IMG/VR virus record: IMGVR_UViG_3300008267_000048
Location: 1-60,444 of that record
Strand: one strand, 5' to 3'
DNA from: a virus
DNA: 60,444 nt
Numbering within the stretch: position 1 is the first letter of the stretch; every line of letters begins with the position of its first letter. Position numbers and translations under genes: made by a program. Positions 2,772 through 59,035 of this stretch are shown in pieces. Under the pieces are notes generated by a model that saw only the letters and a program-made list of their open reading frames with translations, made no database searches and was not told the origin of the DNA.

Positions 2772-2918
2772 ATGGCTGAAAAGAAAGATAAGAATTGGAT
2801 ACAAAAAGCAGTTAACCCTAAACATAAGGGTTTTTGCACTCCAGTTACTAAAAAAACATGTACTCCTAAAAGGAAAGCCTTAGCTATGACTTTTAAGAAA
2901 ATAGCAAAAGGTAAATGA
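2772..2918 (+). CDS. Small basic Cys-pair protein (48 aa), 3' end abuts an HNH gene
   Basis: 48 residues from ATG 2772, two bases after the previous stop. The core HKGFCTPVTKKTCTPKRKALA is a pattern I associate with small phage proteins, with two Cys residues spaced to form a turn or metal site. The C-terminus is KKIAKGK and its TGA overlaps the HNH start as ATGA. A stub encoding KAMAKKK-stop lies just after the HNH gene at 3411-3428. This suggests that the original 3' end of this gene was displaced by the endonuclease insertion and replaced with an equivalent tail. Function unknown. Confidence 0.72.
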   Translation: MAEKKDKNWIQKAVNPKHKGFCTPVTKKTCTPKRKALAMTFKKIAKGK

Positions 2919-3406
2919 AAAAAGCTAGAACAAAAAATAAAACAGATATTTGTTTAGGTTGTCAAAAAGAATTTTTACATTATTCTTGGGATACACAAAA
3001 ATACTGTTCAAAAATTTGTTCAAACAATAAAGATAAAGTAGAAGTATTGTGTGTAGTATGTAATACTTCTACTTTTAAAAGTAAATCATTAGTAGAAAGA
3101 AATGATAATAATTACTGTAGCAGAGATTGTTATAATTTTAGAAATGGTTTACATAAAAAATTAAAAAGAAATACAGCTTATTACAAACATTTACTTCAAA
3201 CAACAAGTTGTAAATGTGGAGAAAAAACTTTTTATTTGTTACAAATTCATCACATAGATGGTAATAACAGTAATAATGAAAAAACAAATTTAGAAGTAGT
3301 TTGTGCAAATTGTCATATAAAAAGACATTTAAAACAAAACAAATCTGGTGAATGGATTTATCATCCAAAAAGTTTAACAGATAGAAACCTTTTAGATTTA
3401 ATTTAA
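2915..3406 (+). CDS. HNH homing endonuclease with zinc-binding Cys pairs (163 aa)
   Basis: A double-strand DNA endonuclease that probably promotes its own spread into related phages lacking the insertion. The C-terminal HNH/beta-beta-alpha-metal core is clear: IHHIDGNNSNN (H112, H113, D115), then NLEVVCANCH (N125, C130, C133, H134) and H138, with a further CxC pair at 99-101. Two zinc-knuckle-like units precede it: C13/C16/C31/C35 and C46/C49/C68/C72. The start overlaps the upstream stop by four bases (ATGA). The gene sits in an otherwise uniform array of small structural genes and is visibly more AT-rich than its neighbours. Cys density and domain type do not fit that array, so it reads as a mobile insertion. 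Confidence 0.9.
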   Translation: MKKARTKNKTDICLGCQKEFLHYSWDTQKYCSKICSNNKDKVEVLCVVCNTSTFKSKSLVERNDNNYCSRDCYNFRNGLHKKLKRNTAYYKHLLQTTSCKCGEKTFYLLQIHHIDGNNSNNEKTNLEVVCANCHIKRHLKQNKSGEWIYHPKSLTDRNLLDLI

Positions 3407-56534: not shown

Positions 56535-56699
56535 TTAATTTAAATCATCATTTAAACTATTTAATGATCTTCTTACTGTTCTAGAAGAGTTAAATACATT
56601 TTTCCTATTTTCCCTAAATTTTAATCTTGGGTAATCACTCATTGGACTCAGATTGCAAATCATAACCCATCTGTTTCTGTTTTTGTTATTTCTGTTCAT
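56535..56699 (-). CDS. Small Asn/Arg-rich protein (54 aa) overlapping the MazG-like gene
   Basis: 54 residues from ATG at 56699, overlapping the last 14 bases of the MazG-like gene in another frame and ending five bases before the next start. It begins MNRNNKNRNRWVMICNLSPM and ends SRTVRRSLNSLNDDLN. The overlap and tight spacing fit the compact operon. I do not recognise a family. The basic start and helical end would suit nucleic-acid binding, but that is only composition. Confidence 0.55.
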   Translation of the reverse strand: MNRNNKNRNRWVMICNLSPMSDYPRLKFRENRKNVFNSSRTVRRSLNSLNDDLN

Positions 56700-57081
56700 A
56701 TTCTTCTACAAATTGTTTTAAGTTTGGTTTGAAATAATTTGGACCTTTTAAGATTTTACCATCTTCTCTCATGATAGCTTTACCGTCATCACCAACTTTA
56801 CTCATGTTGCTTCTGTGGATTTCATCAAATACTTTTTCTATTACATCTTGCATACCATGTTTAAGTATAGTACCACATAGAATATAAAGTTTATCACCTA
56901 AGGCATCTGCTATTTCTGTAAGATCTTGGTTCTCACAGCCCATGAAATATTCTTTGTTCTCTTCATCCATTAAGTTGTATCTTAATGTGTATTCTTCTTC
57001 TGTAAGAAGTCTTGGTTGTTTACCATTTTCCTGGTTAAAAGTTTCATGGAACTCTCTTACTTTATTTAATTGCTTTAACAT
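56686..57081 (-). CDS. MazG-like NTP pyrophosphohydrolase (131 aa)
   Basis: All-alpha NTP pyrophosphohydrolase of the MazG/PRA-PH superfamily, which cleaves NTPs or dNTPs to the monophosphate and pyrophosphate. The metal-binding pattern is visible: LLTEEEYTLR (E28-E30) on one helix and DLTEIADALGDKLYILCGT (E56, D59, D63) on the next. The C-terminal block HRSNMSKVGDDGKAIMREDG is typical of the phage subfamily. With ThyX upstream it would tune nucleotide pools during replication. The current start, ATG 57081, lies inside the end of the GIY-YIG gene. The first 11 residues MLKQLNKVREF replace an older start, MKKQIEAVREL, preserved as a stub at 57862. Confidence 0.85.
   Translation of the reverse strand: MLKQLNKVREFHETFNQENGKQPRLLTEEEYTLRYNLMDEENKEYFMGCENQDLTEIADALGDKLYILCGTILKHGMQDVIEKVFDEIHRSNMSKVGDDGKAIMREDGKILKGPNYFKPNLKQFVEEYEQK
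57050..57061. repeat. 12-base direct repeat, copy at the MazG-side edge of the GIY-YIG gene
   Basis: AACTCTCTTACT (plus strand). It is identical to 57831-57842. The two copies bracket the GIY-YIG gene, whose stop codon begins at the very next base (57062). In minus-strand sense the repeat codes the V-R-E part of the MazG-like protein. Confidence 0.85.
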
Positions 57082-57805
57082 AATTTAATTTATATTTATT
57101 TTTCATTTTTCCTTTATTGTTTATATTTCTATAAAAAGCACTTGTAGAAATATTTAAACTTTCTAGACATTCACTTACACTGTTATATATAACACCACTT
57201 AATTCATCAATAATTTTTTTATTTTTTACTCCTGTAGATAACCATTTTTGATAACCTTTTTTTATAGAAGCTTCATGTTCTTTTGAAAAAACTATTTTTT
57301 TATTTTTTTTAGCTAATGACATTTTTTCTTTACTTTCTTTAGTATGTACTTTACCAGTAGCTGAAATTTTTATTTTTTCTATTGTAGCTTTAGATTTAAC
57401 ATGACCTTTCATTCTTAATGAACAATTTTTTTTAAAATTTTCAGAGTGCTTATAACCTTTAAGTTTTTGAGATATTTTGTTTTTTGTTTCTTCGGAATGT
57501 CTATAATTACCATTTGGATCTGTAGGTTTAATATTATAACCAAAATTAGGATTATGTGTGTTTAATAAATTACACCAATAATTTTCTTCAGAAAATAAAT
57601 ATTCTTCAGAGCATAGTATTAAAACAGAAAATGTAAAGTTTTGATAACCATATTTATTATAAGCTGCTTGTAAGTGCTTATTATCATGTTTATTATTCTT
57701 TAAATGAAATTTATGTTGTGAAAATCTTCTTAAAATATTCAAACTTTGACCAACTAAAATTTTATTATTTTTTAAACATTTAATTATATAAATACCAGAT
57801 TGCAT
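57062..57805 (-). CDS. GIY-YIG homing endonuclease with NUMOD3 and NUMOD1-type modules (247 aa)
   Basis: A site-specific endonuclease, probably a selfish gene. The catalytic domain has G4-I-Y6, a degenerate second half L17-V-G19, the catalytic Arg region (R26/R27) and Glu at about 73-74 (FSEENYWCNLL). Residues 103-170 are three NUMOD3-like DNA-binding units (RHSEETKNKISQKLKG; HTKESKEKMSLAKK). Residues about 203-230 (GVIYNSVSECLESLNISTSA) resemble a NUMOD1 helix-turn-helix. The gene lies between thyX and the MazG-like gene and is flanked by 12-base direct repeats. Its 3' end supplies the start codon and first codons of the MazG-like gene (20-base overlap). It is more AT-rich than its neighbours. 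Confidence 0.92.
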   Translation of the reverse strand: MQSGIYIIKCLKNNKILVGQSLNILRRFSQHKFHLKNNKHDNKHLQAAYNKYGYQNFTFSVLILCSEEYLFSEENYWCNLLNTHNPNFGYNIKPTDPNGNYRHSEETKNKISQKLKGYKHSENFKKNCSLRMKGHVKSKATIEKIKISATGKVHTKESKEKMSLAKKNKKIVFSKEHEASIKKGYQKWLSTGVKNKKIIDELSGVIYNSVSECLESLNISTSAFYRNINNKGKMKNKYKLNYVKAIK

Positions 57806-57807
57806 GT

Positions 57808-57822
57808 TGTAAATATACTAAA
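57808..57822 (-). promoter_or_regulatory. Promoter-like element of the GIY-YIG gene
   Basis: On the minus strand TTTAGTATATTTACA lies two bases before the GIY-YIG ATG. TATATTTAC resembles the Bacteroidota -7 consensus TAnnTTTGC with one change. The first 11 bases equal those of 24305-24315. A start this close to the ATG would give a nearly leaderless message. Confidence 0.38.
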
Positions 57823-57862
57823 TATTTTTTAACTCTCTTACTGCTTCAATTTGTTTTTTCAT
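57818..57862 (-). pseudogene. Stub of the original MazG-like start (14 codons)
   Basis: ATG at 57862 overlaps the thyX stop as ATGA and encodes MKKQIEAVRELKNI-stop. Its first 11 codons align position by position with the present MazG-like start MLKQLNKVREF. The shared V-R-E codons are the 12-base repeat, after which the stub runs into the insertion. The four-base coupling with thyX is the layout expected of the ancestral gene start, so I read this as the 5' end separated from its gene by the endonuclease insertion. Confidence 0.8.
57831..57842. repeat. 12-base direct repeat, copy at the thyX-side edge of the GIY-YIG gene
   Basis: AACTCTCTTACT (plus strand), an exact copy of 57050-57061 at a distance of 781 bases. 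It lies in the stub of the original MazG-like start. Confidence 0.85.
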
Positions 57863-58509
57863 AATAATTCTGAATCTATAACTTCTAATACATTTTTAAA
57901 TGGGTTTCCCGGAATCTCTCCTATAGCAGTAAGCATAGCATTAACAACTTCTCTAGTCTCAACTTGTGCATCTGGTTTAAGTCTTAAAGAACACATATGC
58001 ATAAAAGCAAGTAAACTACCCGTCCAAATAAAACTTGTGTTTAAGTTTAATGGTAAGATAGTTCTAGCTTGTTCTTTAGATACACCTAAGTCTAATAGTA
58101 GTGAGTAAGCTTGTTTACAAGTATCAATCACTTTAGCTTCAATCTTTTTACAAGCTATTTGGTTATCTACTTTTCCTTCACTACCTTGTTTACTGTTTTT
58201 GCTTTGTTTTCTCCACTCAGATATAGTATCATAACTATCTGAAAAATCAACATATCTACCAGAAATACTATTAATAGATATTCCAACCTGGTGCTTAAAC
58301 AGCTGACGCTCAACATATATAGGACACTCAATTCTAAATTGAAATTGAGGATGCCTAAAAGGACTTGAATGCTTATGATTCCACAAGTACCTAATAAGTT
58401 TAGTATTTTGCTCATCTGTATAGTTATCCGCTTTTTTATCATAGCTCACGCGGGCTACATTTACAATCATGTGATCATTTCCAAAGTGATCAATTAACTC
58501 TACCTTCAT
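57859..58509 (-). CDS. thyX: Flavin-dependent thymidylate synthase ThyX (216 aa)
   Basis: Makes dTMP from dUMP with methylene-tetrahydrofolate, FAD and NADPH. 216 residues fit the family. The signature region is VERQLFKHQVGISINSISGR (about residues 66-85). It is a variant of RHRx7S that reads KHQ, as in many viral ThyX. Upstream HSSPFRHPQFQF (47-58) and downstream LPLNLNTSFIWTGSLLAFM and CSLRLKPDAQVETREVV are the usual substrate and FAD blocks. The Glu usually found after SIN is Ser here. The start overlaps the upstream gene by 20 bases and the stop overlapped the original MazG start by four, marking a nucleotide-pool operon. Confidence 0.95.
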   Translation of the reverse strand: MKVELIDHFGNDHMIVNVARVSYDKKADNYTDEQNTKLIRYLWNHKHSSPFRHPQFQFRIECPIYVERQLFKHQVGISINSISGRYVDFSDSYDTISEWRKQSKNSKQGSEGKVDNQIACKKIEAKVIDTCKQAYSLLLDLGVSKEQARTILPLNLNTSFIWTGSLLAFMHMCSLRLKPDAQVETREVVNAMLTAIGEIPGNPFKNVLEVIDSELL

Positions 58510-59035
58510 CTTCTTTATTAATATACATTATTTTTTTACCTAGGTTATTTAATGCATCAATCACTTCATGAACATAACCACCTTCAATTCCATCAGGATC
58601 TAACATTGTATTGTTTTTCTTCAATGATTCTTCTAAGAAATCTTCACATATCTCTTTTAACCCAGACAACATAGCATCTGTGTATTCCATTTCTTTTAAA
58701 TCATCTACAATAGAATGTATTTTTGCATACAGTAAAATAAATGCTGTTCTCTCATTACTTTTAAAAGAAATTTTAGCACTAAACTCTGTAAACATTTTTT
58801 GTAATTCCATTTGTGATTCTTCATTATTTTCAACAAAAGGAACTAAGAAACAAGAACTAAATTTATCAATATATTCTCCAAGGCTGAAGAATATTTTTTT
58901 ATGGTCATGTTTGATATATCTAGTTTTTTTTGCCTTTATGTAATCTTCAAGTGTGTCAAAATCATATAGTAAATCAGAACATTTTATAACAATTCTTACT
59001 ATTCTAATAGTATCAGCATGCTTAATTTCCGCCAT
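58490..59035 (-). CDS. Helical phage protein of unknown function upstream of thyX (181 aa)
   Basis: 181 residues from ATG 59035. An earlier TTG in the same frame lies within the end of the upstream gene and gives eight extra residues, so I prefer ATG. The protein is helical and charged: MAEIKHADTIRIVRIVIKCS at the start, then LLYDFDTLEDYIKAKKTRYI and repeated Glu/Lys helices. No metal or nucleotide motif is recognised. It overlaps thyX by 20 bases and follows the 61-residue gene after 11 bases, so it is co-transcribed with nucleotide genes. A regulatory or scaffold role is possible but unsupported. Confidence 0.65.
   Translation of the reverse strand: MAEIKHADTIRIVRIVIKCSDLLYDFDTLEDYIKAKKTRYIKHDHKKIFFSLGEYIDKFSSCFLVPFVENNEESQMELQKMFTEFSAKISFKSNERTAFILLYAKIHSIVDDLKEMEYTDAMLSGLKEICEDFLEESLKKNNTMLDPDGIEGGYVHEVIDALNNLGKKIMYINKEDEGRVN

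Follow-up and report, generated by a model that had tools for sequence, protein, structure and literature searches.

The mobile ORFs (mORFs) of fungal mitochondria replace gene C-termini, as described for atp6 of Allomyces macrogynus and for atp6, atp9 (GIY-YIG), cox2, and nad3 of Glomus, and hybrid transcripts have been observed (PMC3630166). In phage T4, the seg genes are free-standing GIY-YIG homing endonuclease genes (HEGs) that are intergenic and leave the neighbouring ORFs whole (PMC2988022). Free-standing HEGs of T4 lie between genes; in a few phages, HEGs split genes (PMC2988022). Our search of the open-access literature found the fungal C-terminal cases and no phage or N-terminal case.

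Here, we analyzed a 60,444-nt stretch of viral DNA (IMG/VR record IMGVR_UViG_3300008267_000048; hereafter, the window) with a free-standing GIY-YIG HEG lying early in a MazG-like phage gene. Very likely, this HEG brings with it a substitute for the stretch of the gene that it severed. The architecture of the locus, the empty allele and the maintained MazG frame are observed directly; cleavage, homing and MazG function are inferred.

An initial annotation, made without database searches, had proposed that the HEG was inserted at the start of the MazG-like gene and brought a replacement N-terminus with it. This architecture held on re-examination of the window (Table 1). The gene upstream of the insertion is thyX, whose ATGA stop overlaps the native MazG start. 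The ATG at 57862, within this final ATGA, opens a stub of 14 codons, the last of which extend into the inserted element. The annotation had read the stub as MKKQIEAVREL followed by a stop, which held only in part, as the stop lies three codons beyond residue 11. It had also placed the insertion within the V-R-E codons; the point was corrected to codon 11 of MazG (Phe-11), after TT (TT^C), just past V-R-E. Its claim that a new ATG within the last 20 bases of the HEG opens MLKQLNKVREF was confirmed, with the start at 57081. The replacement N-terminus ATGTTAAAGCAATTAAATAAAGTA and the 3' end of the HEG share 20 bp, read in different frames, and the MazG-like gene is a chimera of this N-terminus and the native body. 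The substitute start comprises about 8–11 codons in frame with the remaining MazG, and what remains of the old start upstream is a dead stub. Solved structures related to the MazG-like protein include the DR2231 MazG-like protein. Elsewhere in the window, an HNH endonuclease ORF was detected at 2915-3406 (+) (phrog_1271, 4e-16), the sole HNH_3 match in the window.

Table 1. Features of the window locus and location of the related polymerase-start elements.
Feature	Location	Strand	Evidence
thyX (FAD-dependent thymidylate synthase)	57859..58509	(-)	Pfam Thy1 3.5e-46; NCBIfam thyX equivalog
Displaced native MazG 5' end (stub MKKQIEAVRELKNI, then stop)	57818..57862	(-)	32 nt identical to L001 and L003
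Left 12-bp repeat copy AGTAAGAGAGTT, native MazG coding sequence at insertion edge	57831..57842	(-)	
Whole inserted element, 781 bp	57050..57830	(-)	Exact comparison with L001 empty allele
TATATTTA box immediately 5' of HEG start	57810..57817	(-)	Sequence comparison
GIY-YIG HEG with NUMOD3 repeats, 247 aa	57062..57805	(-)	
Replacement N-terminus ATGTTAAAGCAATTAAATAAAGTA (MLKQLNKV), element-borne	57058..57081	(-)	83-96% identical to lineages B, D, E, and F
Right 12-bp repeat copy AGTAAGAGAGTT, joining replacement to native MazG body	57050..57061	(-)	
MazG-like NTP pyrophosphohydrolase gene, intact, 131 aa	56686..57081	(-)	Pfam PRA-PH 7.7e-15
Polymerase-start elements, inserted at DIET exonuclease motif, with replacement N-terminus	L082-L085, L197-L211, L231-L249		

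The empty allele was sought by scanning IMG/VR with the MazG protein and ThyX of the window. A sister phage, L001 (= L068), whose ThyX is 98.6% identical to that of the window, possesses an uninterrupted MazG gene with the start MKKQIEAVREFHETF and the ATGA overlap with thyX. Deleting exactly 781 bp (57830-57050) from the window yields the L001 arrangement. The stub matches L001 at 32 of 32 nt, and the 679 nt on its left contain four mismatches; the sequence blocks flanking the insert are ~99.4% identical on either side, and the MazG body of the window is 98% identical to that of L001 at the nucleotide level. L003 and L069 likewise lack the element. An uninterrupted gene starting MKKQIEAVRE, continuing into the HETF body and overlapping thyX by four bases, as had been predicted, was found in L001, L003, and L069. 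The precise empty allele in L001 settles the insertion. In the relatives L002, L004, L006, and L007, a partly hydrophobic ORF of ~65 codons is located between thyX and MazG, directly upstream of MazG. The MazG of Tenacibaculum phage Larrie (L099, 2492-3127, 211 aa) was matched in two pieces, suggesting an in-frame internal insertion.

The 12-base direct repeat that the annotation had reported at both edges is present at those positions. It constitutes weak evidence when taken alone, because first-order shuffling of the region also produced a 12-mer direct repeat with copies 600-900 bp apart in 59 of 300 cases. Its interpretation as a target-site duplication was rejected: the repeat alone is not significant, and its copies differ in the other lineages, e.g., AGTGGAGAAGTT vs AGTAGCAGAATT in L076. 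The start-to-start match, unlike the repeat, is strong evidence: the stub and the MazG start share 23 identities over 32 nt, and none of ~2300 further ATG-initiated 32-mers from the window scored as high. Comparing the stub and the substitute by frame-free local alignment proved to be a test without power. The possibility of an assembly artefact was rejected, the same structure being present in contigs of several metagenome studies.

Further carriers were sought using the HEG sequence, an HEG profile and the substitute start. Homologous HEGs (49-69% amino acid identity) were found at the identical MazG codon in five more lineages, which we designate B (L076-L080), C (L081), D (L100), E (L101), and F (L102), with the window as lineage A. 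The original claim is thus widened from a single event to a recurrent mobile arrangement. In each of lineages B–F, the immediate upstream DNA is unlike that of the window, and a host-type stub is followed by a 247-aa HEG whose 3' end overlaps a new in-frame MazG start. When compared to the best-matching start among 73 HEG-less MazG genes, the stub was 97-100% identical in lineages A, D, and E, 91-94% in B and F, and 75% in C. Over its first 24 nt, the substitute start shows 83-96% identity among lineages A, B, D, E, and F, the MazG bodies of which are 67-78% identical (67-70% for A against B, D, E, and F). Lineage C has a divergent substitute start (58-67% over 24 nt), and its homology therefore rests on position and HEG identity.

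The motif MLxQLNKV was detected in all HEG-bearing MazG genes outside lineage C, but in only one of the 73 HEG-less genes (L119 = L005). In L005/L096/L119, which have no thyX, the HEG-less MazG gene has the substitute as its only start, and ~13 bases resembling the HEG end precede the ATG. L005 is likely a scar left after HEG loss, with a source allele of the substitute start not excluded. The annotation had stated that the host gene stays functional. The MazG frame is intact in all six occupied lineages, L076 being truncated only by the contig end; the invariant residues M1, V8, F11, and H12 are kept with the substitute start, and pN is far below pS in the MazG bodies. MazG activity itself is inferred.

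We estimated the mobility of the element based on synonymous divergence. Among lineages D, E, and F, it was 0.21-0.28 for the HEG vs 0.51-0.71 for the MazG body, with bootstrap intervals that did not overlap. HEG pS was also below that of the MazG body for most other pairs among A, B, D, E, and F; the difference for A and D was not significant (P 0.07). As the synonymous divergence of the HEG is far below that of MazG, the HEG and the substitute start move together, and they have been transferred jointly between phage lineages. On the best tree of MazG bodies (83 genes), the HEG state changed five times, with two of the changes forced by well-supported branches. Lineage B comprises five near-identical contigs of two types, which differ at 10-12 sites in MazG to the right of the element; we interpret these differences just beyond the element as a local recombination tract.

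The window HEG matches Pfam GIY-YIG (PF01541, 4.6e-9) and NUMOD3 (1.8e-6), the intron-endonuclease family TIGR01453 (3.1e-29 over 3-240) and the catalytic domain of I-TevI (3.7e-12). R27 and E74 are invariant in the HEGs of three lineages. In the HEGs, Leu or Met takes the place of the tyrosine in the second GIY-YIG motif (LVG/MVG, against YVG in I-TevI), and their activity should therefore not be assumed. HEG dN/dS between lineages ranged from 0.16 to 0.63, indicating purifying selection. Within the element, a short leader with a promoter-like box precedes the HEG. Among the six 5' elements, this box reads TATATTTG in four and TATATTTA in two, and a TATATTT box just before the HEG start is conserved in both element families, i.e., the 5' elements described above and the 3' elements described below. 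The Bacteroidetes -7 promoter element is TAnnTTTG. The box is similar to it, and the element may possibly bring its own promoter, although promoter function is inferred. No host-genome copies were detected in a search of GTDB genomes with the HEG profile. Among named phages, only distant matches were obtained, and no cultured phage with the element was found.

In 28 of 53 polymerase loci, a family-B-type DNA polymerase gene was scored as having an HEG related to that of the window (46-54% identity in the matched GIY-YIG part) at its start, a count obtained with a scan pattern that favoured HEG-bearing polymerases. The native polymerase stub is kept in three loci (L084/L197, L085/L209, and L211). 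These stubs, MKEEVIIYDIC and MNVLIYDIC, each followed by a stop, and MNILVYDI..., break off within the DIET exonuclease motif, and a substitute start, e.g., MNVIIT-DIET, opens the rest of the polymerase. The residue before DIET is Y, F or W in HEG-less polymerases and T, S, A or V in HEG-bearing ones. Across loci, the stub has mostly been lost and the polymerase ORF is unaffected, which fits the stub being debris. On the polymerase tree, HEG-bearing polymerases are all on one side of one branch. Because they form one clade and the scan favoured them, the polymerase case counts as one further event or clade, not as independent repeats. Mid-gene GIY-YIG ORFs were also observed in or beside the polymerase gene in L235-L238 and L240, and in L242 (3900-5300) such an ORF adjoins a group I intron core (47.8 bits). 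Within the polymerase family, an intron thus accounts for the mid-gene insertion but not for the one at the gene start.

The 3' end of MazG is occupied by elements with an HEG of a different, SegE-type GIY-YIG family on the opposite strand (L013, L027, L108, L109, L111, L113, and L081; in L111, the HEG match is only partial). In these genes, MazG ends in substitute codons antisense to the HEG end, e.g., KSYHPPRLEPIIYNNHNL and a stop, and the native MazG end (KILKGPxYFKPNLxQF...) is displaced ~650-720 nt downstream. L123, with which L108 was compared, is an empty relative that has the native MazG end. L107 and L108 share a 3' element, with a pS of 0.037 for the HEG vs 0.70 for MazG, and the step from different to identical sequence coincides with the element edge. 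Both 5' and 3' elements are present in the single MazG gene of L081.

Two alternatives would restore the host gene by splicing. According to one, the insert is an intron, of group I or another type, that contains an endonuclease ORF; splicing restores MKKQIEAVREF, and the second ATG is incidental. In support, excision of 781 nt would recreate exactly the native L001 gene, the HEG belongs to an intron-endonuclease family, and group I introns exist in related phages, in thyX (L004) and in the polymerase gene (L242). However, all but 37 nt of the insert belong to the HEG frame, and the earlier statement that too little room is left for a group I intron core outside the coding frame held. A permissive Rfam scan of 56600-58600 gave no match at E<=1, i.e., no ribozyme core, whereas at permissive settings the positive controls were detected (L004 thyX intron, RF00028, 89.9 bits; L242, at the score given above); a run at gathering thresholds missed the L004 intron, and only permissive runs were used. 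The substitute start is moreover open, in frame, and MazG-like in six lineages, and serves as the only MazG start in the HEG-free L005. We rejected the intron reading, which is all but excluded. The L004 intron itself (2995-3337) has no evident endonuclease ORF. An intein was also rejected: the stub ends in a stop, the HEG and MazG frames differ, and no intein family was matched.

The remaining alternatives dispense with splicing. The arrangement could be an ordinary intergenic HEG insertion in which a crossover from a donor phage brought the HEG together with the donor MazG start as a one-off accident. The structure of a single genome fits this account, which may well describe how the arrangement first arose; the native start MLKQLQAV of L017/L018/L179 resembles the substitute, and MazG is mosaic within lineage B. 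Against it, the HEG and a near-identical substitute recur where MazG bodies differ by 22-33% and the lineages' own starts persist as stubs; they move as a pair, and for the 3' type identity steps at the element edge. We consider a one-off accident very unlikely. A gene-inactivating or gene-splitting insertion, with MazG lost or made in two pieces as in T4-type split genes, has precedents in mobE in nrdA of Aeh1 and mobA in gene 60 of T4 (PMC2988022). In the window, however, the left piece amounts to 10 native codons before the stop within the insert, and the right piece is one full-length 131-aa MazG ORF retaining all four invariant residues. The low pN relative to pS of the MazG bodies and the loss of most polymerase stubs without effect on the ORF also speak against such an insertion, leaving hardly any room for it.

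Under the preferred reading, that of an HEG bringing a replacement gene start, the proposed mechanism is as follows. In a mixed infection, the endonuclease would cut the uninterrupted MazG gene near codon 11, and the break would be repaired from the occupied copy, with homology to the right provided by the MazG body and homology to the left by the stub or upstream DNA. The annotation had suggested that the insertion removes the endonuclease target. The site is indeed split and the substitute start recoded, and for these reasons the occupied copy would no longer be cut; both cutting and target loss are inferred. Translation of MazG would begin at the new start, perhaps coupled through the overlap to the termination of HEG translation, and the insertion would leave the host gene unaffected with neither RNA nor protein splicing.

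A bolder reading is that terminus-swapping elements with a recoded gene end are the third general way, beside introns and inteins, in which phages make HEG insertions harmless. At least two GIY-YIG subfamilies would have given rise to such elements, one to the 5' elements of MazG and DNA polymerase and another to the opposite-strand 3' elements of MazG. As they spread, these elements would recode the ends of phage replication and nucleotide genes. We consider this generalization more likely than not. If it is true, a selfish endonuclease that itself supplies the lost gene end can, without splicing, enter the best-conserved region of a phage gene, which would account for abrupt N- or C-terminal divergence and for tiny orphan ORFs beside HEGs in phage annotations. 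The succession of stub, HEG and overlapping substitute start provides a sequence signature for surveys. A substitute end recoded to evade the endonuclease, with enzyme function kept, is also a testable parallel to synthetic gene drives with recoded rescue sequences.

Among the known systems, group I introns with I-TevI-type endonucleases share with the window element the I-TevI-homologous catalytic domain, membership of TIGR01453 and an insertion harmless to the host gene. The window element differs in lacking a ribozyme core, being harmless by substituted coding sequence, not by splicing. Like mobE in Aeh1 nrdA and mobA in T4 gene 60, its HEG is inside conserved coding sequence without an intron or intein (PMC2988022); those split genes consist of two ORFs with assembling products, whereas the window MazG is one full-length ORF. 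With the T4 seg genes, the element shares the GIY-YIG type, the free-standing organization, presence or absence at a fixed place and short overlaps with neighbouring ORFs (PMC2988022), but no seg gene is described with a substitute gene terminus in the relevant sections of PMC2988022. At the sequence level, it has three hallmarks of a free-standing GIY-YIG HEG, namely a nuclease domain with key residues kept, presence or absence at a fixed site in close relatives and an element less diverged than MazG; site-specific cleavage of the empty allele and super-Mendelian inheritance are inferred. In fungal mORFs, too, an endonuclease ORF lies within a gene and a divergent substitute terminus is fused in frame, and, as in both the 5' and the 3' elements of phages, the native terminus, matching HEG-free relatives, is displaced past the insert. 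The mORFs are mitochondrial and affect the C-terminus, whereas the window element belongs to a phage and affects the N-terminus; it has to bring a start codon of its own, and its 3' end also serves as the host gene start. The phage 3' elements (L027, L108, L081, and L113) are the nearer counterpart of mORFs, yet their HEG is on the opposite strand and the substitute C-terminus is antisense to its last codons. The window element works like an mORF but is not classed as one.
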